Source of the DNA: Mesostigma viride | Lineage: Eukaryota > Streptophyta > Mesostigmatophyceae > Mesostigmatales > Mesostigmataceae | DNA length: 64,000 nt | Assembly: GCA_009746045.1 (NCBI GenBank) | Contig: RPFO01000154.1 | Span: forward strand, 7,310,193-7,374,192 | Direction of reading: 5' to 3' | In this document: in pieces, positions 2 to 24,989 of the stretch | Layout: each line of letters opens with the position of its first letter | Position numbering within the stretch: position 1 is the first letter of the stretch | The notes under the pieces: generated by a model | Seen by the model: the letters and a program-made list of their open reading frames with translations, nothing else | Databases searched by the model: none | What the model was told of the DNA's origin: nothing | Made by a program: the position numbers and the translations under genes

Positions 2-603
2 GTCACGGTGGCAAAGCACCCTGATGGGTCCCCGGCTATCGCTTTCCAGGCAATCAGCGAGGACGGCACTTGTTGGGGCCCTATGGTGTGCCCCAGCGCA
101 AAGTCCGTCACCAAGCTGGATGGCGGAGCCGGGCCGCTCGTGATCACCATGGAGCTGGCCAAGATGTGTGGTGCGACCCGTGAGAACGGCGGGCTCATAG
201 ACAGCACCGTTCTCGTGGAGGGATGGAAAGGGCCAGCGGCGCGACCCGATGCAATGACTTCCATGCTGATCAACGTCATCCTCAACCCCACGGACCCAAA
301 GCGGATGGCCTGCGTGGCTGTGCCGGCCTTGGTGGTCGACAGGTGTGGGTATGCAGCCCTTATCGGGATGGACGTCATGTATCGCCTCGGGCTCATAATT
401 GACCCTTGGCTGGAGGTTGCGACCTACCGCCGTGATTGGCAGGGGGAGGGGAAGCAAAAGGCGCTTCTTCCCATTCAGTGCAGCAGCGACCCGGAGCCTA
501 ACCCGCAGGGGGTGGTGTCGCTAGACGCGTGTGTGGCTGCAGTGGTGTCGCCCGCCAGCATAGAGGTGGAGCCAGGGGATGCGGCTGAGAACTGGGGGGG
601 GGC
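2..603 (+). CDS. Retroviral-type aspartic protease region, 5' partial
   Basis: The frame is open from the window edge. The segment KLDGGAGPLVITMELAK fits the active-site strand of retroelement aspartic proteases, where family members have D-S/T-G-A, and LIGMDVMYRLGLIID fits the C-terminal hydrophobic strand of the same fold about 90 residues later. Here the active-site triplet is Asp-Gly-Gly. The product would release gag and pol proteins from the polyprotein. The frame runs into a nine-G run at 594-602, after which the methyltransferase frame takes over by a -1 step; the reading continuing in the old frame to 778 is a low-complexity tail. The true start lies upstream of the window. The assignment rests on two motifs and on position before the methyltransferase and RT. 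Confidence 0.6.
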
Positions 604-2049
604 GTGTGGCCGGACGCGCAAGCGGTGCACATGGCGCAAGCGGCTAGCGACAAGCGCGCGCGCGATAGGCACCGGTGTGTGCTGCCTGCGGCGTTGCCAG
701 CGCGGGATGCGCAGAGGCAAAGTTGGCTTGCCCAGGTTGCGCCCCTGCCACGCCTGCGCGATGTGCGCGCACGGGTGATGGCGGCATGTCAGGCACTGCC
801 CAAGGGTGCTGGGGGGAAGCGGCGCCAGCCGGGTGCCATCACGCAGTACCCCGGCTTTAGCGCAGAGGTGCTGGAACGCATCCCGGACTTCGGGCGTGCC
901 ACCGTCGTGCTGGAGCTGTTCGCAGGTATGGGTGGCGGCATAGCCGGTTTCCTGAGCAGCGGGGGGGTATGCAGCAAGCTCATTGCGGTGGAGGCATCGC
1001 TCACAGCCAGGGCGGCATATTTGCACCACTGCGCTATCTTGTCGCAAGCATACCCAGCACAATTTCCTCCATCCGCCTGGGCTGATGTCTTCGGCGAGGG
1101 CACTCATGACGTGCGCTTCCTTGGGCAGCAGCAGCTGCGCCGCCTCATCTCACAACATGGCGAGGTAGGGTTGGTCATTGCTGGCTGGGAGTGCCAAGGC
1201 ATGAGCCAGGCTGGGCATGGCCGGGGCCTTGCCGACAGCAGGAGCGGCCTATTTTGGGACATGCTGCGCATTGTGGGCGAGCTCCAGCAGCTGCAGCAGG
1301 TGCCACCCGCCTACTTATTTGAAAACGTAGTGGCGGTGGACAGTCCCAGCCCCACTGTTCGGGAGGATTGGGGCACCATTGTGGGTATTTTGGGGGAACC
1401 CGTGGTGTCGGACAATGCCGGGCTGGGAGGGAATACCCATCGGCTGCGCGCGTTCTGGACCAACATCGCTGGCCAAGGTTCTACGCAGGCGGTGATGCAG
1501 CATGTCGCTAGCCACATTGAGCTGCCACCGGTCGATGTCGTGTTGCCCAGTCAACTCACGGCGCAGTATGTGGAGCACGATGATCAGGCACCCTACGCGC
1601 CCGTCAACAAGGCAGGCGCCCCCATGCGAGCACTGCCCACCCTTGTCAGTTACCAAGGGTCCCAGGCTTATCGTGACCGGGGCAAGGGGCTTGTGTGGGA
1701 GCGTGCCACAGGTCTCTTGGTTCAGCCACCCGCGGGGTTTCGTGAACTAAGCATGGGCTTTGCCGAAGGTGCATCCGCCGCCCCAGGGCTCCTGGAGGTG
1801 GAGCGATGGTCGCTCATTGGCCAGGCCATGTCAGCCTGGCAGGTGGGGTACACCTTGCTAGCAGCGCAAGGTGTGCGGAGGGTGCAGCGGGTTGCACTTC
1901 CCGTCCATGCTGCGACTGCACAGGCGCAGAGTGAACTTCTCCACCCACCGGTGCTGCGCCGGCTGGTGTGCCTAAGGCGGAGCGTGCAGGCGGCAGGGGC
2001 CAAGGGTGGTCCTACACCTGGCGCCAGGTATGGTCAGTCATCCTCATGA
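604..2049 (+). CDS. C5-cytosine DNA methyltransferase domain inside the retrotransposon
   Basis: The product would transfer a methyl group from S-adenosylmethionine to cytosine in DNA. The family motifs appear in canonical order. Counting from the GTG at 604, motif I (ELFAGMGGG) is at about residues 104-112 and the catalytic motif IV (GWECQGMSQAG) has its cysteine near 197. ENV of motif VI is near 240, HRLR of motif VIII near 279, then comes a variable region that would be the target-recognition domain, and LIGQAMS near 405 stands for motif X. Usual enzymes have Pro-Cys in motif IV; here it is Glu-Cys. There is no convincing ATG, so it is probably read as part of the polyprotein from the protease frame through the nine-G run. 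The 3' end overlaps the RT frame by 82 nt. DNMTs captured by retrotransposons are known from dinoflagellates and charophytes; relation to those is not testable here. Confidence 0.9.
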   Translation: MWPDAQAVHMAQAASDKRARDRHRCVLPAALPARDAQRQSWLAQVAPLPRLRDVRARVMAACQALPKGAGGKRRQPGAITQYPGFSAEVLERIPDFGRATVVLELFAGMGGGIAGFLSSGGVCSKLIAVEASLTARAAYLHHCAILSQAYPAQFPPSAWADVFGEGTHDVRFLGQQQLRRLISQHGEVGLVIAGWECQGMSQAGHGRGLADSRSGLFWDMLRIVGELQQLQQVPPAYLFENVVAVDSPSPTVREDWGTIVGILGEPVVSDNAGLGGNTHRLRAFWTNIAGQGSTQAVMQHVASHIELPPVDVVLPSQLTAQYVEHDDQAPYAPVNKAGAPMRALPTLVSYQGSQAYRDRGKGLVWERATGLLVQPPAGFRELSMGFAEGASAAPGLLEVERWSLIGQAMSAWQVGYTLLAAQGVRRVQRVALPVHAATAQAQSELLHPPVLRRLVCLRRSVQAAGAKGGPTPGARYGQSSS

Positions 2050-5000
2050 CTGCGCTCCTCACCAGCTGTGTGTTCTCGGCGGCTCCGGCCTTTCAGTTCC
2101 TCGTGGCGAAGGCACAACGGCAGGTGGGAGAGCGAGGCATTACGCCGGGAGCGGCGGCATACATGCTGTTTCAGTCGGCGGCCGTGCGCGGTCCCACGGT
2201 GGCTGTGCACAATGTCTCGAGCGCAAGCGACCCGGCAGCAAACCATCAATGGAGCGTCTGTGAGCACCTCACAGCTGAGCAACGTGCGAGGCTGCTCAAG
2301 TGGCTGGAAGGTGCGCGCAACGCGTTTGCATTCAGCAGTCAAGAGCTGGGATGCTACAATGGTGGGCAGATGCGGGTCCCGCTGGACACCGATCAGCCAC
2401 TGTTTCGCCGACAACACCGGCTGAGTCAAGCTGAGCTGGAGTTTGTGCAGCAACAATGCGAGGAGCTGGAGGCTGCTGGCATCATTCGGTCATCCACATC
2501 CAACTATGCGGCCGCGACCGTCGTGGCGCCCAAGAAGGATGCGGTGACAGGTGAATGGACTGGGATGCGCATGGCGACGGACCTGCGGCAACTCAACGCA
2601 CACACCCCGATGGACAGGTACCCCATGCCGCGAGTGGACGATGTGCTTGACCGGATATCGCCACGCGTGCAGTTCATCTCATCCCTAGACCTCCGCAGTG
2701 GGTTTCACCAAATCCAAGTGGCGGAGGGTGACCAACGCAAGCTCGCGTTCTGGGGGGCCACCGACTCTATGAGTGGGTCAGGATGCCTTTCGGGCATAGG
2801 AATGCGAGTGCCATCTTTCAGCGTGCCATGGATCAAGTGTTGAATGGCATGCCATTCGCTGCGTGTTACATTGATGATGTGATCATCTTCAGTGAGACAT
2901 TTGAGCAACACCTCCAGCACCTTGAGCAGGTGCGCATGGCACTGGCGCGAGCCAACCTAAAGCTGCATCCCGAGAAGTGTCGGTTTGCGCAGCGGAGCCT
3001 CGACTTCCTCGGACACCAGATCATTCCTGGCGGCAGAACTCCACAAGCGGCCAAGGTGGAAGCGATCGTCAACGCGGCAACGCCCACGGATGTGGCGGGT
3101 GTGCGGGCTTACCTGGGGCTGGCGGGGTATTACCGAGGTTATATCCCCAACTTCAGCACCAAGGTTAAGCCACTGACGGAGCTGTTGAAGAAAGGTGCAG
3201 TCTGGGCATGGGGTCCGGCGCAGCAACGCGCCATTGAGACCATCAAGGCAGAGCTCACCTCAGCGCCGATACTCCGTCAGCCCGACTATGCCCAGCCATT
3301 TGTGCTATACACGGATTGGTCCAGGGTTGGACTTGGTGCTGTGTTGGCACAGAAGGACGTGCATGGCAAGGAACATGTGGTGGCGTATGCCAGCAGGAGC
3401 AACAACACGGCTGAGGCCAAGTACTCATCGTATGAGGGCGAGGCTCTGGCCGTGGTGTGGGCCATCAAACATTTTCGGCCATACTTGTTCGGGCGTCAGT
3501 TCACGCTGGTCACCGACCATCAGCCACTGCAGTGGTTGATGACAAGTGCCAATCTGACTGGCAAGCTGGCGCGCTGGGCCATGATTATTCAAGAATATAA
3601 CATGACCATTGTACACCGCGCTGGGGTGGACCATTCCAATGCCGATGTCTTATCACGCTATGCTTTGGCAACGTCAGAGGACCGGACGGGGGCGCGAGCG
3701 CAGGGCGCGGAGGGACCACAGGGCTCAGTCGTCTTTGTCAACGCAGCCGGGCCATGCGATTCCGAGTCGCGATGGCTTTCCTGCAGTGATGCCGTGGCGG
3801 AGTTTGCGTGCTACGCCAATCCCGTACGGCCAGCGGCTTTCACGCCATCCCAGGGCGTGATATTTCTTCCTTTGGCTGAAGACACGCTTGCGCAGCCGGT
3901 GGATCCGGCGAGCATGGGCTGTGTGGTGCTGCATGCTGCCGCCAGTCACGCCATTGCGGTGGAGTGCTGCGCTGGGGACGTGTGGCTGGATGGGAGGGTT
4001 CTCGAGCGGGTGCAGGGTTTGCCTGCCTCTCCAGCCCCTGCTGACTGGACACCGACGCAGAGGCAAGCCGAGCAAGAGCGCGTGGAGCGCCGGGCTGTGA
4101 ATTATACCTGGGAGGGCAACCAGGTCTACAAGCTTGTGGGGCGCCGCAAGCTGGTCGTGCCGCCCCCTGACAAGCGTGCTGCCCTCGTTGCACATTACCA
4201 TGAGCGGTTCGGGCACATGGGTGCAAACCGCACAGGTGCCATGGTGCGTGGGGTCTATTGGTGGGCGGGCATGAAGCATGCCATCGCACGGCAGGTAGCC
4301 AGTTGTGCTGAGTGTGCTCGCGCGAAAGCGCGTTTCAACCTGGACCATCATGACAAGGAGCTCATGAGCTTGCCCATCCGGGGCTTGTTCTACCGGTGGC
4401 ACGTCGACTTGTGTGGGCCCTTTGAGCTCAGCACTTCCGGCAACCGTTACGTCATGGTGTGTGTGGAATCGTTCAGCAAGTGGCTGGAACTGATTCCCCT
4501 ACCCGACAAGCACGCCGCCACCACAGCCACCTACTTCCTGGATGTTATTGCTCGGTATGGGGCACCGGCGGAGGTGGTTTCAGACCAAGGCGGGGAATTT
4601 CGTGGGGAATTCCAAGAGCTATTGGATTCCTGCTCCATCGATCATCGGCACACGTCGCGGGAGCACCCTCAGGCCAATGGACTGGCTGAGCGTTTGGTTC
4701 AGACAGTCAAACAGGCGCTGCGCAAATGGGCGTTGCAAGCAGCACGTGTGGCCACCTGGGATAGGGAACTACCCTGGATCGCCATGGGCTACCGGATGAG
4801 CCCACAAGAATCCCTCGCCCAGTTCTCCCCCTATTTTCTGCTCTTTGGTCGGGCACCATTGTTGCCCTCTGAGGTGCAGGAAGCTCACCCCCAGCCGATT
4901 CAATGGGATGACGCCAATGAGTGGCTGCGGGAGGTTGTGGCGCGCGCCGCCACATTTAAGAAGGTGATGCCCATCGCGATGAACAATCTGTTGATCGCGC

Positions 5001-5523
5001 AGCACCGCGACACACTGCGGTACGCCCAGCGACGGGGTGGCAAGTATATGGCCAGGCGGCTGCAGTTCCACCCCGGCCAGTATGTGTTTCTGCGGACTCA
5101 ACCCCAACACACGCTGGACGTCACGGCCGGGCCCACCATCCTTCGCATTGTGGAGATTAAGCCTTCGGGGGTGGCCATCCTCGAAGGTGCGGATGGTAGT
5201 AAGACCACTGACAATGTGTCGAACCTGTCTCCTTGCTCCATGCCCCACCTGGCACGGAGCATCCAGCCGCACACCGCTAGGCGCATCCGCGATGCGCAGT
5301 GTCAAATTTGTCACCGGGTCGACCAGCCTGAGGTCATGTTGCTGTGTGATCACTGCAACTGCGGCTGGCATCTTCACTGCCTTCAACCCCCTCTGTCTCA
5401 GGTACCGGAGGGTTCCTGCCTTCCTGGTTTTGCCCTGTGTGCATTGCTGTGGGGTTCACCAACCATGCGATTCAAGCAGCTACTGCCACTTTGTTGCTCG
5501 CTACCCAGCAAAGGACTTGGTAG
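1968..5523 (+). CDS. Pol: reverse transcriptase, RNase H, integrase, PHD finger (two internal frame breaks)
   Basis: RT begins in one frame (1968 to about 2758, with TDLRQLNAHTPMDRYPMPRVD and SSLDLRSGFHQI) and continues in another (MPFGHRNASAIFQ, then CYIDDVIIFS with the YxDD catalytic motif). The break follows the six-G run 2752-2757. RNase H follows (LYTDWSRVGLGAVLAQ, then YEGEALAVVWAIKHF, VTDHQPLQWL and HSNADVLSR, holding the D-E-D-D residues). Integrase has an H-H-C-C zinc site (HERFGH ... CAEC) and a D-D-E core (HVDLCGPF, VSDQGGEF, ANGLAERLV). A beta-rich tail leads to a PHD finger whose last zinc pair is in the next frame, ending with TAG at 5521. The coding content is complete for RT-RH-IN, which supports recent activity. 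One frame start given here is only where the RT frame opens. Confidence 0.9.
5300..5442 (+). other. PHD-type zinc finger at the C-terminus of the integrase
   Basis: Reading on from the integrase tail, CQIC, CDHC, WHLHC and finally WFCPVC give the Cys4-His-Cys3 pattern of a PHD finger, including the tryptophan two residues before the last Cys pair. The first part is in the pol frame; WFCPVC is read from 5425 in the next frame, so one base is missing between. PHD fingers bind histone H3 tails. In chromoviruses a chromodomain occupies this place and guides integration, so a targeting role is an inference from position. Confidence 0.8.
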
Positions 5524-5540
5524 CGAGGGGGGGAGAAAAG
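5524..5540 (+). other. Polypurine tract before the 3' LTR
   Basis: A 16-base purine run (seven G, then AGAAAAG) directly follows the pol stop codon and precedes TGGGCAGCAC, the likely LTR start. This is the expected place and composition for the primer of plus-strand DNA synthesis. Confidence 0.65.
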
Positions 5541-5667
5541 TGGGCAGCACTAGTGGGGTAAGGCTAGCATGTGGCCCATCGATCACCCATGCAGCCATAC
5601 CTCATGAGGGCCAACGAGGTCGTGGGCTACTGTCAGTGCAGGGAGTTTGGCACGAGTACGCGACAGC
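5533..5667 (+). repeat. 135-bp direct repeat, copy 1 (start of the presumed 3' LTR)
   Basis: These 135 bases, starting eight bases inside the purine tract, recur without a visible mismatch at 6656-6790. The copy ends in a perfect 16-bp palindrome (5659-5674, centred on CAGCTG). Confidence 0.9.
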
Positions 5668-6655
5668 TGTCGCGCGCCGTTCCGATTCGCACGAGTATTG
5701 GCTTTACGCGGGGCCGCCACGCGGCCGGCCCGGGGGACGAGGCGAGGCAGCTATAGGCAGTGCGCGTGTGCGAGTTGTTACGCCTTTGGCATTTGGGCCT
5801 TACGGGAGCAACGCATGCGCCGTAGTGCGACGCGCAGCACTGGGAGTTGACAGCGGTACTGACATGCGTCACCAGGAGGTCACTGCCAACGCTGGCAAGC
5901 AGCACGCACTGGCTGTTGGACTACAACACGGACCAAGCTAGGCTGCCAGCCTGGGCAATTATGCTTTATCGTGCAGGCTGAACATGCACGTGCACGCAAG
6001 CTGGCGCGTTATTGATCTCGAGAACTGTCCGCTGCAGGTAGATAATGTCGTGCAATATTGGCATTGATATTCGGCAGGCTGGCAAGCCGCTTTTGTGAAT
6101 GCGACGAGGCAGCTTTTCTCGTCAGGGCCAGCTAGTTGTCGTACATGCTTGGTTGGTGATATAGTTGTTTGGCAAGCTCAGGGGTCGGCAAGTCGACACT
6201 GGAGTGATCTGCGACAAGGACATTTTGTCGTCTGGGATTTCTGGCCTACCCAGGTTGTCTAGTTGATTTTGTCGTCTAAAGAGAAAGTGCTAGATGATAT
6301 GTTTCATATGCGGAACAGGGAGTCGTTGCAGACAACGACTTAGGATTTTGTGTACTTTTAGGTCTTGGTGCTGACCAAAGCCGAGTGCCACGGAGTAGCT
6401 TTGGTGTAATTGAAGCAGTATGGACGACAAAGCGGTTGTCGTCAGGATCAGATACTGAGCGTGGCTACGTGGTAAGGCTGACGCAAGATATTGCGTAAGT
6501 GTGAGGCATTCATTGGGATAAGTGTGTGTTTCCACCAGGGCGTTGGATGTAGCTCTGTGAGGATCCTTGAACTCTGTCTTGGTCATGGTGGTGCGTGGCA
6601 AGTGTGGCCAGCCCTCCTTTCTTTCATTGAGCCCAGTTATTGCTGAAACAGAGCT
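5668..6655. other. Non-coding stretch between the two 135-bp repeats
   Basis: No convincing gene. The pol frame continues open to 5941 but without family motifs. The stretch may be the body of the LTR. It contains several GTCGT and TTGTCG words but no clear tandem array. Confidence 0.5.
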
Positions 6656-6790
6656 GAGAAAAGTGGGCAGCACTAGTGGGGTAAGGCTAGCATGTGGCCC
6701 ATCGATCACCCATGCAGCCATACCTCATGAGGGCCAACGAGGTCGTGGGCTACTGTCAGTGCAGGGAGTTTGGCACGAGTACGCGACAGC
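6656..6790 (+). repeat. 135-bp direct repeat, copy 2
   Basis: Appears identical to 5533-5667 over 135 bases, including the eight purines before the presumed LTR start. Outside it the flanks differ. It could be a second LTR fragment of the same family or a tandem LTR junction. Confidence 0.9.
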
Positions 6791-7116: not shown

Positions 7117-7159
7117 TTTAGGGTTTATTAGGGTTTAGGGTTTAGGGTTTAGGGTTTAG
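7117..7159 (+). repeat. Interstitial telomere-type repeat (TTTAGGG)n
   Basis: About six TTTAGGG units, one of them interrupted (TTTATTAGGG), end at 7159. This is the plant/Arabidopsis-type telomere unit, also used by many algae and by dinoflagellates; Chlamydomonas has an extra T. The block lies 31 bp before the 5' end of a LINE. Confidence 0.92.
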
Positions 7160-7190
7160 AAAGCAACGGTAAAACGGCTGATGGCCGTAT

Positions 7191-15597: not shown

Positions 15598-18423
15598 CCT
15601 GGACAGGTCCTTAGATAGTACCCCAGTTAATAATTTTTGCTTGCCTGTTTTTATAACCTCTGTAGGAGCTGAATCATCCCTACCACTACGTGTGCGTCCT
15701 CTTATGTTCTTGAATGGTGGCTTAACCGTCCCTCATACTGTTGTAGACCCCTTCTTGCATGCTGATGAACTCTTGAATGTCTCTGTGTTAGTGGATAGCG
15801 GTGCGGCTAGCTCCTTTGTGAGCGAAGCCCTAGTTAGGCGTTTAGGACTAGTCCCTACCCCTCACACAAAAACTGTCACTGTCCATTATGCTGACGGTCG
15901 CACCAGTCATTCCCCGGGTACGGTGTCCCTTCCCCTGGTCATACAAGGACGTACGGTCAACCTGACGGCCACTATAGGCCCTATCACTACAGCTGATGTA
16001 TTACTAGGATTAGATTGGCACCAAGATAATAAGATTACTATTAATTATGATACTATGGTCATCTGGTTTCCAGATAGCTCTTACTGGGTACCGGAACGTC
16101 ATTATAGATTAGAAAATTTATCCTTGGTAGATATTACTCCTCCTACACCTGTTGATCCTCCTGTGAGACCTATACCTGAAGTATTAATGTCCAATGACGA
16201 ATTGCGATCTGAACTAAAGGAATATGGGTACCTATTATGTATGTTCCTTCAGTTAGAAGTACAAGAGATACCTATCACTAATAATAGTGTGGATATAGAT
16301 GTAAATACAGTGGATACAATAGGAGTGGGATTTACTGAAAATGAAATAGTAAGATACATGGCTGTGATAGATTCCTCGAAAGTATTTGAGGAAAAGACTC
16401 CTTCTTATCCTCCTCCTCGTTCTGTTTTACACCGTGTAGTTATCAAGGACGGTGCAGTTCCTACGCACTCTCCGATGTATAGAATGGGCCCTACCGAATT
16501 AAAGGAACTAAAACAGATCTTAGTATCACTATTAGAAGCAGGATTGATAGAGCCTAGTAACTCCCCCTACTCCGCTGGTGTCCTTTTAGTTCCTAAGCCA
16601 AATGGCAAGTTTCGCCTAGTTACTGATTATAGGAAGTTAAACGATATTACTGTGAAGTCTAAATACCCTCTACCTCGTATTGATGATATATTTAATAAAG
16701 TTAAAGGTTCTACCTGTTTCACAGTACTAGATTGTGCGGATGGTTTTTGGCAACTACGTATAGCTCCTGAGGATTGCCACAAAACCGCCTTTGCTACCCC
16801 TTTTGGGCATTACCAGTTTAGAGTAGCGGCTATGGGACTCAAGTGTCCTCTGATTTAAAGGATCCTTCCTTCTCCTCTGTTTCTTTATCTGAGCATGACC
16901 GTTCTTGTGCTCAAGCTTACTTAGATGATATCCTTATTTATTCTCCTGATTTTGAAACGCACCTACGTGATTTAAAGAAAGTATTAGAAATCAGGGCTGA
17001 AAATTCTTTATGGGCGCGCCGTGCTAAAGTTCGCTCTGGTAGGAGTGTCCCATTTTTAGGGCACGTCCTGTCAGATGCCGGGGTTGCTACCGACCCGGAC
17101 AAGACTAAGTCAATTCAGGAATGGCCTACCCCTACCGACGTTAAAGGTGTACGTAGTTTTCTAGGAATTGCTTCTTACTATAGGCGTTTTATCCCGCGTT
17201 TCGCAACTATAGCAGCCCCTATTAATCATCTATTAAAGAAGGATATCCCCTTTGTTTGGAGTAGTGAATGTCAGTCGGCTTTTCAGTGTCTAAAATCCCT
17301 ACTCCTCTCCCCTCCCGTACTCATCCTACCGGATACTACCAAACCCTTTGTTGTAGCTACAGATGATAGTAAGGTAGCTATAGGGGGCGTCCTTCTCCAG
17401 GATCAGGGTCAGGGCTTACAGCCAATCGAGTATATCTCTAGGACAATGCTTCCTGCGGAGCGTAACTATCCCGTACACCAGCAAGAACTATTAGCTGTGG
17501 TGTATTGTTGCCACGCGTGGCAGCACTTTCTTAAAGGTGCTCAATTTGATGTTTGTCTGAATGAACCCTGCGAGATTGATCCTTATAGATTAGTTATCCA
17601 GACGGACCACCGTCCCCTTACCCATCTTCTCTCCCAACCCAACCTTACCCCTCGTCAAGCGCGCTGGATGGAGTTTTTAGCACAGTTTTCCCCTTTTAAA
17701 CTTCAGTATGTTAAGGGTGTAGATAACATAGTACCAGATGCACTCTCCCGTCGTGCAGATTACTCCTTTTTCGAGGACCTTGATGTTCTCAATACTACTC
17801 TAGTTCCTACTACTATGGGTGTAACCCCGTATGGTGAACTACCTGATGATGAATCCTATGTCTACCTCTTTCATACAGCTGTTCGCATGCCTGATCTCCT
17901 TTCTCACGTAGGACTCTCTCTCCCGTGTGAGGCCCTTCCTGTGGTCTCGGTGGGGGGGAGGGGAAAAATAAAATTTCTATACCGCTTAGCCATGTAGCGA
18001 CTAGGTCAGGAAAGTCTTATGAAAACATAGTCCCTCTAGGACCTCCCCTTCTCTTTGGCAAGGCGGTAGGAGATCTCTTTAAACCTGTTCTGGATACCTC
18101 TGTAGCGATGCCTACCTTGATCTTGAACACCTTATTAGTAGATTTACGGCCACTGAGCCGGAAGCATTAGCTGCCATTGCTGCCCATCCCAACAATTAGG
18201 CAAGCACCCTTGTAAAATTGTAGGTGGATTTTTCTATGTGCAGATAGCAGATTCTCCCCCTCAATGGCGCCTGTATGTCCCTCCTATTTGTCGCTCCTCC
18301 TTGCTCTTTGAGTTGCATGACTTAGCTGCTCATCAGGGTGGTAAACGGGTACGGGACCTAGTAGCCCGCTCTTACTACTGGAGGTGTTCCCCTGGCTTCC
18401 GGGCGAGGGCGAGGCAGATATAG
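15554..18423 (+). pseudogene. Pol of the nested element: protease, RT, RNase H, truncated integrase
   Basis: The first frame (15554-16858) has protease (DSGAASSFVSEA, LLGLDWHQDN) and RT (LVTDYRKLNDITVKSKYPLP, FTVLDCADGFWQLRI). After AAMGL a 76-bp deletion, with the trinucleotide CTC at both edges, removes the segment present in the outer copy at 22132-22208 and shifts the frame. The second frame (16843-17997) has AYLDDILIYS (YxDD) and RNase H (VVATDDSKVAIGGVLL, HQQELLAVVYCCHAW, IQTDHRPLTHL, DNIVPDALSRR). Integrase keeps only the zinc-site start (LHDLAAHQGGKRVRDL) and ends at the deletion junction near 18379. RT cannot be functional. Confidence 0.92.
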
Positions 18424-21290: not shown

Positions 21291-24200
21291 GTATTACTAG
21301 GATTAGATTGGCACCAGGATAATAAGATTACTATTAATTATGATACCATGGTCATTTGGTTTCCAGATAGCTCTTACTGGGTACCGGAACGTCATTATAG
21401 ATTAGAAAATTTATCCTTGGTAGATATTACTCCTCCTACACCTGTTGATCCTCCTGTAAGACCTATACCTGAAGTATTAATGTCCAATGATGAATTGCGA
21501 TCTGAACTAAAGGAATATGGATACTTATTATGCATGTTCCTTCAGTTAGAAGTACAGGAGATACATATCACTAATAATAGTGTGGATATAGATGTAAACA
21601 CAGTGGATACAATAGGAGTGGGATTTACTGAAAATGAAATAGTAAGATACATGGCTGTGATAGATTCCTCAAAAGTTTTTGAAGAAAAGACTCCTTCTTA
21701 TCCTCCTCCTCGTTCTGTTTTACACCGTGTAGTTCAAGGACGGTGCAGTTCCTACGCACTCTCCGATGTATAGAATGGGCCCTACCGAATTAAAGGAACT
21801 AAAACAGATTTTAGTGTCACTATTAGAAGCAGGATTGATAGAGCCTAGTAACTCCCCCTACTCAGCTGGTGTCCTGTTAGTTCCTAAGCCAAATGGCAAG
21901 TTTCGCCTAGTTACTGATTATAGGAAGTTAAATGATATTACTGTGAAGTCTAAATACCCTCTACCTCGTATTGATGATATATTTAATAAGGTTAAAGGTT
22001 CCACTTGTTTCACGTACTGGATTGTGCGGATGGTTTTTGGCAACTGCGTATAGCTCCTGAGGATTGCCATAAAACCGCCTTTGCTACCCCTTTTGGTCAT
22101 TACCAGTTTAGAGTAGCGGCTATGGGACTCTGTAACTCTCCTGCCTCTTTTCAAATGTTAATGAATGAAGTGCTTAGACCTGTTATGGGAAATTCTCACC
22201 TTCCTCAAGTGTCATCTGATTTAAAGGATCCTTCCTTCTCCTCTGTTTCTTTATCTGAGCATGACGTTCTTGTGCTCAAGCTTACTTAGATGATATCCTT
22301 ATTTACTCTCCTGATTTTGAAACGCACCTACGTGATTTAAAGAAAGTATTAGAAATAATGGCTGAAAATTCTTTGTGGGCGCGCCGTGCTAAAGTTCGTT
22401 CGGGTAGGAGTGTCCATTTTTAGGGCACGTTCTGTCAGATGCCGGGGTCGCTACCGACCCGGATAAAACTAAGCCAATTCAGGAATGGCCTACCCCTACC
22501 GACGTTAAAGGTGTACGTAGTTTTCTAGGGATTGCTCTTACTATAGGCGTTTTATCCCGCGTTTCGCAACTATAGCAGCCCCTATTAATCATTTATTAAA
22601 GAAGGATATCCCCTTTGTCTGGAGTAGTGAATGTCAGTCGGCTTTTCAGTGTCTAAAATCCCTACTCCTCTCTCCTCCCGTACTCATCCTACCGGATACC
22701 ACTAAACCCTTTGTTGTAGCTACAGATGATAGTAAGGTAGCTATAGGGGGCGTCCTTCTCCAGGATCAGGGTCAGGGCTTACAGCCAATTGAGTACATCT
22801 CTAGGACAATGCTCCCTGCGGAGCGTAACTATCCCGTACACCAGCAGGAACTCTTAGCGGTGGTGTATTGTTGCCATGCGTGGCAGCACTTTCTTAAAGG
22901 GGCTCAATTTGATGTCTGCCTGAATGAACCCTGTGAAATAGATCCTTATAGATTAGTTATCCAAACGGATCACCGTCCCCTTACTCATCTTCTCTCCCAA
23001 CCCAACCTTACCCCTCGTCAAGCGCGCTGGATGGAGTTTTTAGCACAGTTTTCCCCTTTTAAACTTCAGTATGTTAAGGGTGTAGATAATATAGTACCAG
23101 ATGCACTCTCCCGTCGCGCAGATTACTCCTTTTTCGAGGACCTGGATGTTCTCAATACTACTCTAGTTCCTACTACTATGGGTGTAACCCCTTATGGTGA
23201 ACTACCTGATGATGAATCCTATGCCTATCTCTTTCATACAGCTGTTCGCATGCCTGATCTCCTTTCTCACGTAGGACTCTCTCTCCCGTGTGAGGCCCTT
23301 CCTGTGGTCTCGGTGGGGGGGAGGGGAAAAATAAAATTTCTATACCGCTTAGCCATATAGCGACTAGGTCAGGAAAGTCTTATGATAACATAGTCCTCTA
23401 GGACCTCCCCTTCTCTTTGGCAAGGCGGTAGGAGACCTCTTTAAACCTGTTCTGGATACCTCTGTAGCGATGCCTACCTCTGATCTTGAACGCCTTATTA
23501 GTAGATTTACGGCCACTGAGCCGGAAGCTTTAGCTGCCATTGCAGCCCATCCCCAACAATTAGGCAAGCACCCTTGTAAATTTGTAGGTGGGTTTTTATA
23601 TGTGCAAATAGCAGATTCTCCCCCTCAATGGCGCCTGTATGTCCCTCCTATCTGTCGCTCCTCCTTGCTCTTTGAGTTGCATGACTTAGCTGCTCATCAG
23701 GGTGGTAAACGGGTACGGGACCTAGTAGCCCGCTCTTATTACTGGCCTTCCCTTTTAAAGGATGTAGATGAGTATGTTAGAACCTGTCAATCTTGCCAGG
23801 AGATGAAACCCAATAATGTAGGACAGATAGCAGAACCTAGGACCCTGCCTGATCCCATCATGCCGTGGGACTCATCATGATGGATTTTGTAGGACCTTTT
23901 AGGAAGAATGATAGAGGTAACGCCCAGATCCTTGTTTTCGTAGATCGTTTTACTCGTATGTGTCATCTCGTGCCGTGTCCTTTAGAACTCACCGCACGCG
24001 ATTGCGCACGCCTATACCTTAATAACGTTTACAGATATCATGGTTTGAGTAGGCAGTTTATTAGTGATAAAGATAAGCTATTTACCTCTGACTTTTGGCA
24101 GCAGTTTTTCGCTGCTATCGGTACCAAGGTTACGTTCGGTACTGCCTACCACTCCTCCTCCTCTCATCTAGTAGAGCGTCTTAATAGGGTAGTGGAAGAA

Positions 24201-24989
24201 GCGCTTAGGCACTATGTTAATGGCTCGGGAGTGATTGGGAGGATTATTTATGCTTGGTAGAGTTCTCCCTTAACAATTGCCCCCAGGCTGCGCATGGCTA
24301 TACGCCTTTCTTCCTAGATACTGGTAGACAGCCTCTTACTCCTACCTCTCTCTTAGCTAGTCCTCTACGGGACAGGGACGATGTGTCCCGGGATACTGTA
24401 GAAGGTGTACAGGCCTTGCTAGATAAAATGAAAAATGCACATGATCACGCGATTCAGGGTACCAAAAGGCTCAGTCTAAGTACCTTGCTAGGTTGCGTGC
24501 CTCCTTAGATAGAAGAGCGCCTGAAATAGATATAGGAGATCTAGTATTAGTAGAAGGCCCCCGTGTTGGCCGTTTTGCTCACAAGTTCGAAGCAGAACTT
24601 AAGGTGAAACTTAGGCCCGCCTTCTTAGGACCCTTCCGTGTGTTGTCTAGAGTAGGAATTTCTTATATAAAGTCGATATCCCTACCTCTTGGCAGACACA
24701 TTCTAACACCTTCCATAGAAGCCAGCTGAAGCTTTATCACCAAGCACGTTCGCTGGTAGAGAACTAGCTCCTGCCCCTTTAGAGCATAACCCTGACACTG
24801 GGAGGTAGAAGACGAGGTAGAGAGTATCGTGGCCCATAGAGATATCAAAAAGGGCCGCGGTACCCAGCGCCAGTATAAGTGAAATGGATGTATGCTCGTA
24901 GTGAGGTAGATAAAGTATGGTACACGGAGAGTGAGTTAGATGGTTGTAGCCGTTTGTTGCAGGACTACAAAACCCTACACCAGCTCTAG
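21291..24989 (+). pseudogene. Pol of the outer chromovirus, part 2: RT, RNase H, integrase, chromodomain (several frameshifts)
   Basis: Continues the protease with LLGLDWHQDN, then RT with the segment missing in the nested copy (CNSPASFQMLMNEVLRPVMG) and YLDDILIYS. RNase H lies in 22809-23360. Integrase has HDLAAHQGG and CQSCQEMK zinc ligands and core residues in MMDFVGPF, FISDKDKLF and HLVERLNRVVEE (23470-24260). A DLVLVEGP segment and a chromodomain close it at TAG 24987. Relative to the nested copy the frame is broken by small losses near 21735, 22014, 22267, 22417 and 22533. Further breaks in the integrase include the TAG ending the frame at 24260. All domains are present, so an intact relative would be autonomous. 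Confidence 0.9.
24799..24989 (+). other. Chromodomain at the C-terminus of pol
   Basis: WEVEDEVESIVAHRDIKKG, then QYKVKWMYARSE, VWYTESELDG and a final helix (LLQDYKTLHQL) fit the chromodomain, including the aromatic residues of the methyl-lysine cage. One base is missing after QYK. Chromodomains of chromoviruses bind methylated histones and steer integration. The deletion in the nested copy removes this domain. Confidence 0.82.

Follow-up and report, generated by a model that had tools for sequence, protein, structure and literature searches.

A Ty3/Gypsy-type retrotransposon of Mesostigma viride with a DNMT3-like DNA methyltransferase between protease and reverse transcriptase

In Klebsormidium nitens, the retrotransposon KnitGypsy-Dnmt3 encodes a DNA methyltransferase (MT) that is under purifying selection, and its repeats are arranged in a DIRS-like A-coding-B-A-B layout (de Mendoza et al. 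2018, PMC5890265). For retrotransposon MTs, methylation of cDNA as a self signal, protection, and altered chromatin at the insertion were proposed as roles (PMC5890265). DNMT3 members embedded in streptophyte and dinoflagellate retrotransposons were also noted with reference to de Mendoza et al., in a passage without mention of Mesostigma (PMC12344493). Methylase-encoding Ty3/Gypsy and DIRS retrotransposons (adenine and cytosine types pooled) were reported, citing others, from green algae, charophytes and further groups (PMC6338049), and MT-carrying elements in green algae are therefore not new in themselves. Genomic 5-methylcytosine of Mesostigma, mostly at CG, was described as well (PMC6947507). 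Mesostigma is not mentioned in the main text of PMC5890265. By titles and abstract beginnings, and with the Mesostigma genome paper partly covered, no literature report was found of a Mesostigma element or of an arrangement with the MT between RNase H and integrase. Here, a 64,000-nucleotide stretch of Mesostigma viride ("the window"; assembly GCA_009746045.1, contig RPFO01000154.1, positions 7,310,193 to 7,374,192, forward strand) was analysed, which begins within a copy of a Ty3/Gypsy-type element carrying an MT.

The normal order of this element is Gag-Pro, MT, reverse transcriptase (RT), RNase H, integrase and PHD finger, with the DNMT3-like MT between protease and RT; Gag was named by its place and by a zinc knuckle seen by eye. 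The original prediction of a DNA methyltransferase carried by a Ty3/Gypsy-type retrotransposon is borne out, the arrangement being contiguous, multi-copy and constrained. The explanation favoured as a whole, with a probability of about 0.8, is an MT-carrying Gypsy element of the KnitGypsy-Dnmt3 family, including the MT, PHD and circle steps proposed below.

In the window, PF00145 (DNA_methylase) was matched with an E-value of 2.5e-11 in a 486-aa open reading frame (ORF) in frame 1, with motifs I, IV, VI, VIII and X in the expected order. The frame predicted at 604..2049 was retained, with its start moved to 589 (Table 1). Its predicted position, with motifs in order between a protease-like segment and RT in overlapping frames, agreed with PF00145, the Pfam RT matches and the homology of the protease segment to relatives. 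The Pro, MT and RT frames overlap, and a -1 shift leads from each to the next. In the downstream frame-2 ORF, the matches to RT, RNase H, H2C2, rve and PHD all exceeded the Pfam curated cut-offs, and the RT part in frame 3 stayed under it (PF00078, E 8.6e-5, 22.8 bits). The upstream frame-2 segment alone had no Pfam match. It matched the protease region of related proteins (P0123, E 7e-15; P0045, E 3e-13; also P0130, P0131 and others; search space set to 140). PF13975 is listed in P0123, and PF13650/PF13975 matches, not all above the curated cut-off, lie upstream of the MT in P0125, P0126, P0131 and P0132. The protease motif at ~116-130 (frame 2) reads LDGGA in the window, LDSGA in copies L028 (subfamily B) and L058 (subfamily C) and LDTGA in P0123.

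Further copies were searched in the whole genome (439.9 Mb, 2243 contigs) with the MT, scoring 88 of 558 candidates, and with RT, scoring 150 of 2303. At least 90 MT matches were obtained: 31 window-like ones (83-100% identity), 4 fragments and 55 at 59% identity (subfamily B). Twenty of the 55 lie within a 2074-aa open frame; the one dissected (L028) reads Pro (LDSGA)-MT-RT-RNase H-H2C2-integrase-PHD. In subfamily A, copies L035-L037 have a 1081-aa frame (Gag-Pro by position) and, overlapping it, one of 1642 aa (MT to PHD; dissected in L037), and in a four-copy lineage including the window the MT occupies a separate 486-aa frame. Subfamily C was found by the RT search (RT 84% identical). It was absent from the MT list and was considered as an MT-less third subfamily; this was rejected, as the MT is present in all three copies fetched, in one of them only in part. 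Longest aligned stretches were 99.6-99.99% identical to L037 among seven subfamily-A copies and 99.9-100% identical to L028 among eight subfamily-B copies; the element has been copied recently. At G000:C58:50463-52025, a subfamily-B MT and RT were seen within a 3371-aa open frame.

A joining of MT and RT as chance neighbours or by an assembly artefact might be suspected from the broken window frames, some of them broken at G runs. The same order recurs, as the original prediction implied, in many copies and in three subfamilies, at numerous loci that differ in their flanks and show 4-bp target site duplications (TSDs), and uninterrupted 2074-aa frames span MT and RT; because of this recurrence the association is not a chance one, and the alternative, with a negligible probability left to it, was ruled out. 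Copies fetched for dissection were chosen from MT matches and are by themselves no test of MT absence. Starting from RT instead, 33 subfamily-A RT rows were found at 96% identity or more, with an MT match up to 5 kb upstream in 25. Three of four other places fetched carry MT sequence, and C800 is truncated after the MT. At the four remaining places, the nearest listed MT match lies 5.4 kb (C513), ~7 kb (C1508) or 8-9 kb (C998, C1520) upstream; this proximity test covered 32 of the 33 rows, C513 being counted separately. Lack of the domain in other copies, named beforehand as a sign of chance neighbourhood, was not the pattern at the places resolved.

Table 1. Features of the element copy in the window (positions of the window; ~, approximate)
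Feature	Position	Strand	Remarks
Gag-Pro ORF1, C-terminal part, retropepsin-like	2..778	+	frame 2; active-site motif LDGGA
DNMT3-like C5-methyltransferase frame	589..2049	+	PF00145; conserved domain ~889-1890; motif I from 907, motif VI (ENV) Glu 1321-1323, motif VIII (HRLRAFW) ~1432-1467, motif X 1813-1839
Nine-G run in Gag-Pro/MT overlap	594..602	+	GGGGGGG in phase of putative -1 slippery heptamer
Motif IV Glu-Cys (GAG TGC)	1189..1194	+	catalytic Cys TGC 1192-1194; Glu (GAG 1189-1191) in place of Pro
Frame-3 ORF, linker and N-terminal RT half	1935..2843	+	PF00078 partial; RT from ~2385
Frame-2 ORF, remaining RT, RNase H, H2C2, rve and PHD	2732..5941	+	PF00078, PF17917, PF17919, PF17921, PF00665, PF00628; RNase H ~3212-3634, H2C2 4160-4333, rve integrase core 4391-4669, PHD finger 5300-5407
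Polypurine tract	5523..5533	+	GCGAGGGGGGG; directly 5' of B1; identical letters before B1 in subfamilies A and B
Repeat B1	5533..5667	+	ends CGCGACA + spacer GC; perfect 135-bp direct repeat with 6656-6790
B1.GC.A2 joint	5659..5674	.	16-bp palindrome CGCGACAGCTGTCGCG
Repeat A2	5668..6655	+	~140 bp short at 3' end; matches A1 (left end) of other copies
Repeat B2	6656..6790	+	right end of element, CGCGACA at 6788

The window copy itself is 5'-truncated and frameshifted. Its start lies 2298 bases before that of the window (L024 position 4703), and it shows B-A-B, the left repeat A1 missing through truncation. Because of the truncation and frameshifts it is probably not autonomous, judging from its sequence. 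Its PHD finger, read by eye, seems interrupted by another frameshift. The nine-G run was present in all eight subfamily-A copies inspected; in two of these, L038 and L041, the upstream frame stops immediately ahead of the run. The phase of the heptamer, a candidate by sequence, was checked in L037. No slippery heptamer was found in the Gag-Pro/MT overlap of subfamily B. A first protein search with the window MT gave two matches only, and among named sequences eukprot jgi/Mesvir1/17751 alone matched closely (98% over 51% of the query). Both the window copy and many relatives have a PHD finger after the integrase core, a position occupied by a chromodomain in other Gypsy elements. Elsewhere in the window, a short TTTAGGG-type telomere-like run was seen by eye at ~7119-7160, ~330 bp past the right end of the element. 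Further RT similarity to the element (27-45% identity) was found at 16460-17757 and 21769-24218, with no MT match; the latter region matches H2C2 and integrase as well.

By profile and predicted fold, the element MT is of the DNMT3-like class. A profile built from seven MT sequences matched DNMT3A best among solved MT structures (E 2.4e-22), followed by plant DNA methyltransferase and DRM2 chains at 5e-13 to 2e-11 (4onj, the best non-DNMT3 match, 5e-13; DRM2, 2e-11), then HhaI (6e-10) and DNMT2. An AF2 model of the MT had a mean pLDDT of 77, with most of the domain above 90, and in a fold search with it all 50 PDB matches listed were DNMT3A/B/C entries, at TM-scores of 0.39-0.80 (by target length) and 17-20% identity. 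Phage MTs were considered as nearest relatives and rejected, as their matches were weak (80% of the query was not covered by any of 35 phage records; 32 pattern matches in IMG/VR gave 15 loci) and the five phage rows compared have no HRxRxFW motif VIII. Scanning IMG/VR with P0005 and with the MT and the RT-integrase region of the window led nowhere. Dozens of strong bacterial-like C5-MT frames were seen on many, mostly small contigs (364 aa at ten places with the same score; 313 aa at many), among them C35, C47, C64, C79, C340, C389, C815, C1517, C1809 and C1935 of the Mesostigma assembly (G000); a second multi-copy element with an MT, an endogenous virus or contamination may lie behind them.

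Coding-sequence comparison of one subfamily-A with one subfamily-B copy shows constraint on the MT. A dN of 0.28-0.30 and a dS of 2.1-2.8 were obtained (dN/dS ~0.10-0.14), below the Ka/Ks criterion of 0.2 for purifying selection; for the integrase of the same pair, dN was 0.21 and dS 2.2 by the single method giving a dS. Because dS is saturated, the ratio is a rough bound only.

In other C5-MTs, Pro-Cys is a nearly invariant motif IV. Within the element family, the catalytic Cys was kept in 59 of 65 MT rows, and the residue before it was mostly Glu (36 rows) or Pro (20), with Ser (2) and Gly (1) as exceptions; outside the family, motif IV was compared with DNMT3A and five phage rows. The window MT has the Cys, the ENV Glu and motif I, with Glu for Pro in motif IV. 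Both forms occur where the MT precedes RT (T1; Cys in 23/23, Glu-Cys in 8/23) and where it lies between RNase H and integrase (T2; Cys in 36/42, Glu-Cys in 28/42).

According to the proposed mechanism, the MT would be carried along in the particle together with RT and integrase, and would methylate cytosines, most likely at CG, of the cDNA or new insertions of the element itself. New insertions would then arrive pre-marked in a host using CG methylation, and the PHD finger may steer integration by reading chromatin. The roles proposed for other retrotransposon MTs in PMC5890265 would fit the Mesostigma element. De novo CG activity, which the original prediction mentioned for the retrotransposon DNMTs of dinoflagellates and a charophyte, was demonstrated in yeast for the SymbioDIRS MTs only; the KnitGypsy-Dnmt3 test was negative and was called inconclusive by its authors (PMC5890265). 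CpG decay was tried as a clue to methylation and discarded (observed/expected 0.78-0.85 vs 0.77 in the window at 9-64 kb), substitutions being too few.

Several points weigh against this explanation. Besides the negative Klebsormidium test, Glu-Cys was read in all four Mesostigma copies inspected (window, L037, L028 and L058), and the dN/dS ratio, for which one of three methods failed, covers divergence between subfamilies and not the window copy. Furthermore, the Cys is lost and the domain retained in 6/42 T2 relatives (P0037; P0043, Tetrabaena; P0044; P0048; P0062, Astrephomene; P0087), so catalysis is perhaps not always what is selected. The MT might then be a non-catalytic DNA-binding, packaging or regulatory domain retained for its fold, a view suggested by the altered motif and these six relatives; the preserved Cys, ENV Glu and motif I of the Mesostigma MTs, the presence of Pro-Cys and Glu-Cys forms in both sets and the strong constraint make it rather unlikely. 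Catalytic self-methylation is given even odds.

For the wider family, the best 120 of 895 relatives of the window RT-integrase region under the E-value limit were inspected. Fifty-three carry an MT (12 T1, 41 T2); the other 67 have none in the same frame, many of these proteins beginning just before RT. A further MT search gave long MT proteins without RT (P0124-P0127, P0129-P0131; 1252-1451 aa), and P0125 and the RT-integrase protein P0003 each come from an 8955-bp contig. Named T1 hosts include Klebsormidium nitens and Closterium, and named T2 hosts include the chlorophytes Astrephomene, Tetrabaena and Chromochloris zofingiensis (by the label Chrzof1). In the partial K. nitens protein P0045 (KFL_009030040), the MT precedes RT as in the window. 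The Pol tree comprised 83 rows, i.e. 82 of the 120 proteins and the window, after 16 had failed the RT-RNase H filter, one (P0115) had no RT-RNase H match and 21 had failed the integrase filter. The MT tree, a quick tree, comprised 71 rows (65 family, five phage, DNMT3A); P0123, P0011 and P0038 were too short for it and P0001 and P0002 were left out. Its T1 set included the window and L037 (which do not differ over the tree columns), the N-terminally incomplete P0045, and P0134, which was T1 by default and fell among T2.

In the MT tree, 18 of 23 T1 rows, including Mesostigma, Klebsormidium and Closterium, formed a group (SH-aLRT 87), and 43 rows (T2 including P0134) formed a second one (support 91); four T1 MTs (P0095, P0103, P0110, P0066) and DNMT3A were not resolved beside both. 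In the Pol tree, 31 T2 rows and the MT-less P0025 formed one clade (support 100). The MT was thus probably either inherited with Pol and moved once, or taken twice. The latter would mean that T1 and T2 acquired related MTs separately, which the two places in Pol, the two MT groups and the four T1 MTs outside the main T1 group would allow; the occurrence of related MTs in related Pol lineages and of the unusual Glu-Cys in both sets makes two captures the less probable course.

The original prediction had also considered a further capture if the host were of another lineage. In that case a Mesostigma Gypsy element would have taken up a host DNMT separately from Klebsormidium, which would agree with the long branch of the Mesostigma MTs, whose nearest other rows are more than 2 changes per column away, and with DNMT3A not being resolved outside the retroelement MTs, the 71 rows including no Mesostigma host DNMT3. 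The protein search and phylogeny identified the MT as DNMT3-like and placed it with the Klebsormidium and Closterium retroelement MTs, and a separate capture appears improbable. Since the MTs group, the place in Pol is the same and the A-coding-B-A-B repeats are as reported for KnitGypsy-Dnmt3, one older acquisition in a green-algal element lineage is probably the simpler reading of these sequences. The T1 rows of the Pol tree, scattered outside the T2 clade and not forming a clade, count against the explanation favoured; the placement of the Mesostigma Pol among them is not resolved by that tree.

Full copies of the Mesostigma element have the structure A1 (~1.13 kb)-coding-B1.GC.A2/B2. A1 and A2 within one copy were 98.2-100% identical over the compared parts (eight copies). 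The termini are of TG...CA type (left TGTCRCG, right CGCGACA), and 4-bp target duplications flanked seven of eight copies with both ends read (CTTG, GGCC, CCCA, TTCT, CCCC, TAGT, ACTC). In L046, L049, L051, L065, L070, L071, L072, L074 and L075, the expected end was absent from the stretches fetched at reckoned coordinates. The left end is A and the right end B.GC.A/B, not the same long terminal repeat (LTR) at both ends. Internally, both terminal sequences meet as CGCGACA-GC-TGTCRCG; the subfamily-B joint, CGCGACAGCTGTCACG, is one pair off the palindrome. The joint pattern CGCGACANNTGTCRCG occurred genome-wide 417 times forward and 412 times reverse vs 4+2 for the control (perfect palindromes scored on both strands), and the spacer was GC in all 100 joint rows listed. 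The A2/B2 joint took six forms in seven subfamily-A copies (L037 = L068; L035, L038, L039, L040, window) and three in six subfamily-B copies (L054 = L056 = L063 = L067; L057; L061); additional polypurine-tract Gs were present in L040 and four further bases of post-A1 sequence in L038.

The variable A2/B2 joint suggests a circular, end-joined cDNA as the molecule that is opened by a DDE integrase. A linear cDNA, (B.GC.A)-int-(B.GC.A), would be end-joined into a circle, yielding the A2/B2 joint, and integrase would open this circle at the CA.GC.TG joint within the repeat that precedes the coding region, giving the split repeats. The two-repeat circle, and not the linear cDNA, would then be the integration substrate, and the (near-)palindromic joint at which it is opened would carry both terminal sequences (CGCGACA.GC.TGTCRCG); the MT may act on the circle, e.g. 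mark it as self or block expression before integration. This is put forward as a tentative possibility. No report of a circle model for such elements was found by titles and abstract beginnings. Several observations count against the explanation favoured as a whole: no mirror form (A/B.A-int-B) was found, A1 running straight into the coding region in all eight copies followed; four of six subfamily-B A2/B2 joints are identical; no target duplication was found at C998; and no tRNA primer site (TGG...) was recognised by eye beside A1 in the two copies inspected, one from subfamily A and one from subfamily B. As random opening predicts mirror copies, their lack weighs against random opening of the circle.

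The Klebsormidium case is thereby extended to what looks like a widespread green-algal element family with many relatives in public sequence. A DNMT3-like enzyme appears to have been kept in Pol long enough to occupy two places, alter its catalytic motif and lose its Cys in some lineages. With its reported CG methylation (PMC6947507) and many near-identical copies, Mesostigma offers a test system for why a retrotransposon would methylate DNA, and split repeats, 4-bp TSDs and a variable joint together give a specific, testable prediction on circular integration intermediates.

Compared with the catalytic domain of DNMT3A/DNMT3B, the Mesostigma MT shares motif order, an HRxRxFW-type motif VIII, the predicted fold and the best profile match, and differs by the low identity in the 50 structural alignments, by Glu-Cys, by a domain of ~334 aa vs ~263-295 aa for isolated catalytic-domain chains, and by the lack of ADD or PWWP matches in a Pfam scan of the MT frame. 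DIRS/PAT-type elements have split direct repeats in an A1-coding-B1-A2-B2 layout. This layout is common to both, whereas the Mesostigma element has an rve integrase with H2C2, TG...CA ends and 4-bp TSDs, and no tyrosine recombinase (PF00589) was matched in the four window frames scanned; it is not a DIRS element by these characters. Canonical LTR retrotransposons share the TG...CA ends and short target duplication, and have the same LTR at both ends, which is absent here. SymbioDIRS-Dnmt3 of Symbiodinium likewise combines a DNMT3-like MT in Pol, split repeats and two domain orders within the group, but encodes a tyrosine recombinase where the Mesostigma element has a DDE (rve) integrase, and its MTs are active on CG in yeast (PMC5890265). 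From KnitGypsy-Dnmt3, the Mesostigma element differs by its host class, by Glu-Cys vs Pro-Cys in P0045 and by its many near-identical copies; the termini, 4-bp TSDs, GC-spaced joint and variable A2/B2 joint described here are not mentioned in the abstract or in sections 6, 9, 10 and 11 of PMC5890265. Both have a DNMT3-class MT in a Gypsy Pol (RT-RNase H-rve), A-coding-B-A-B repeats and an MT under purifying selection, and their sequences point to membership of the same family.
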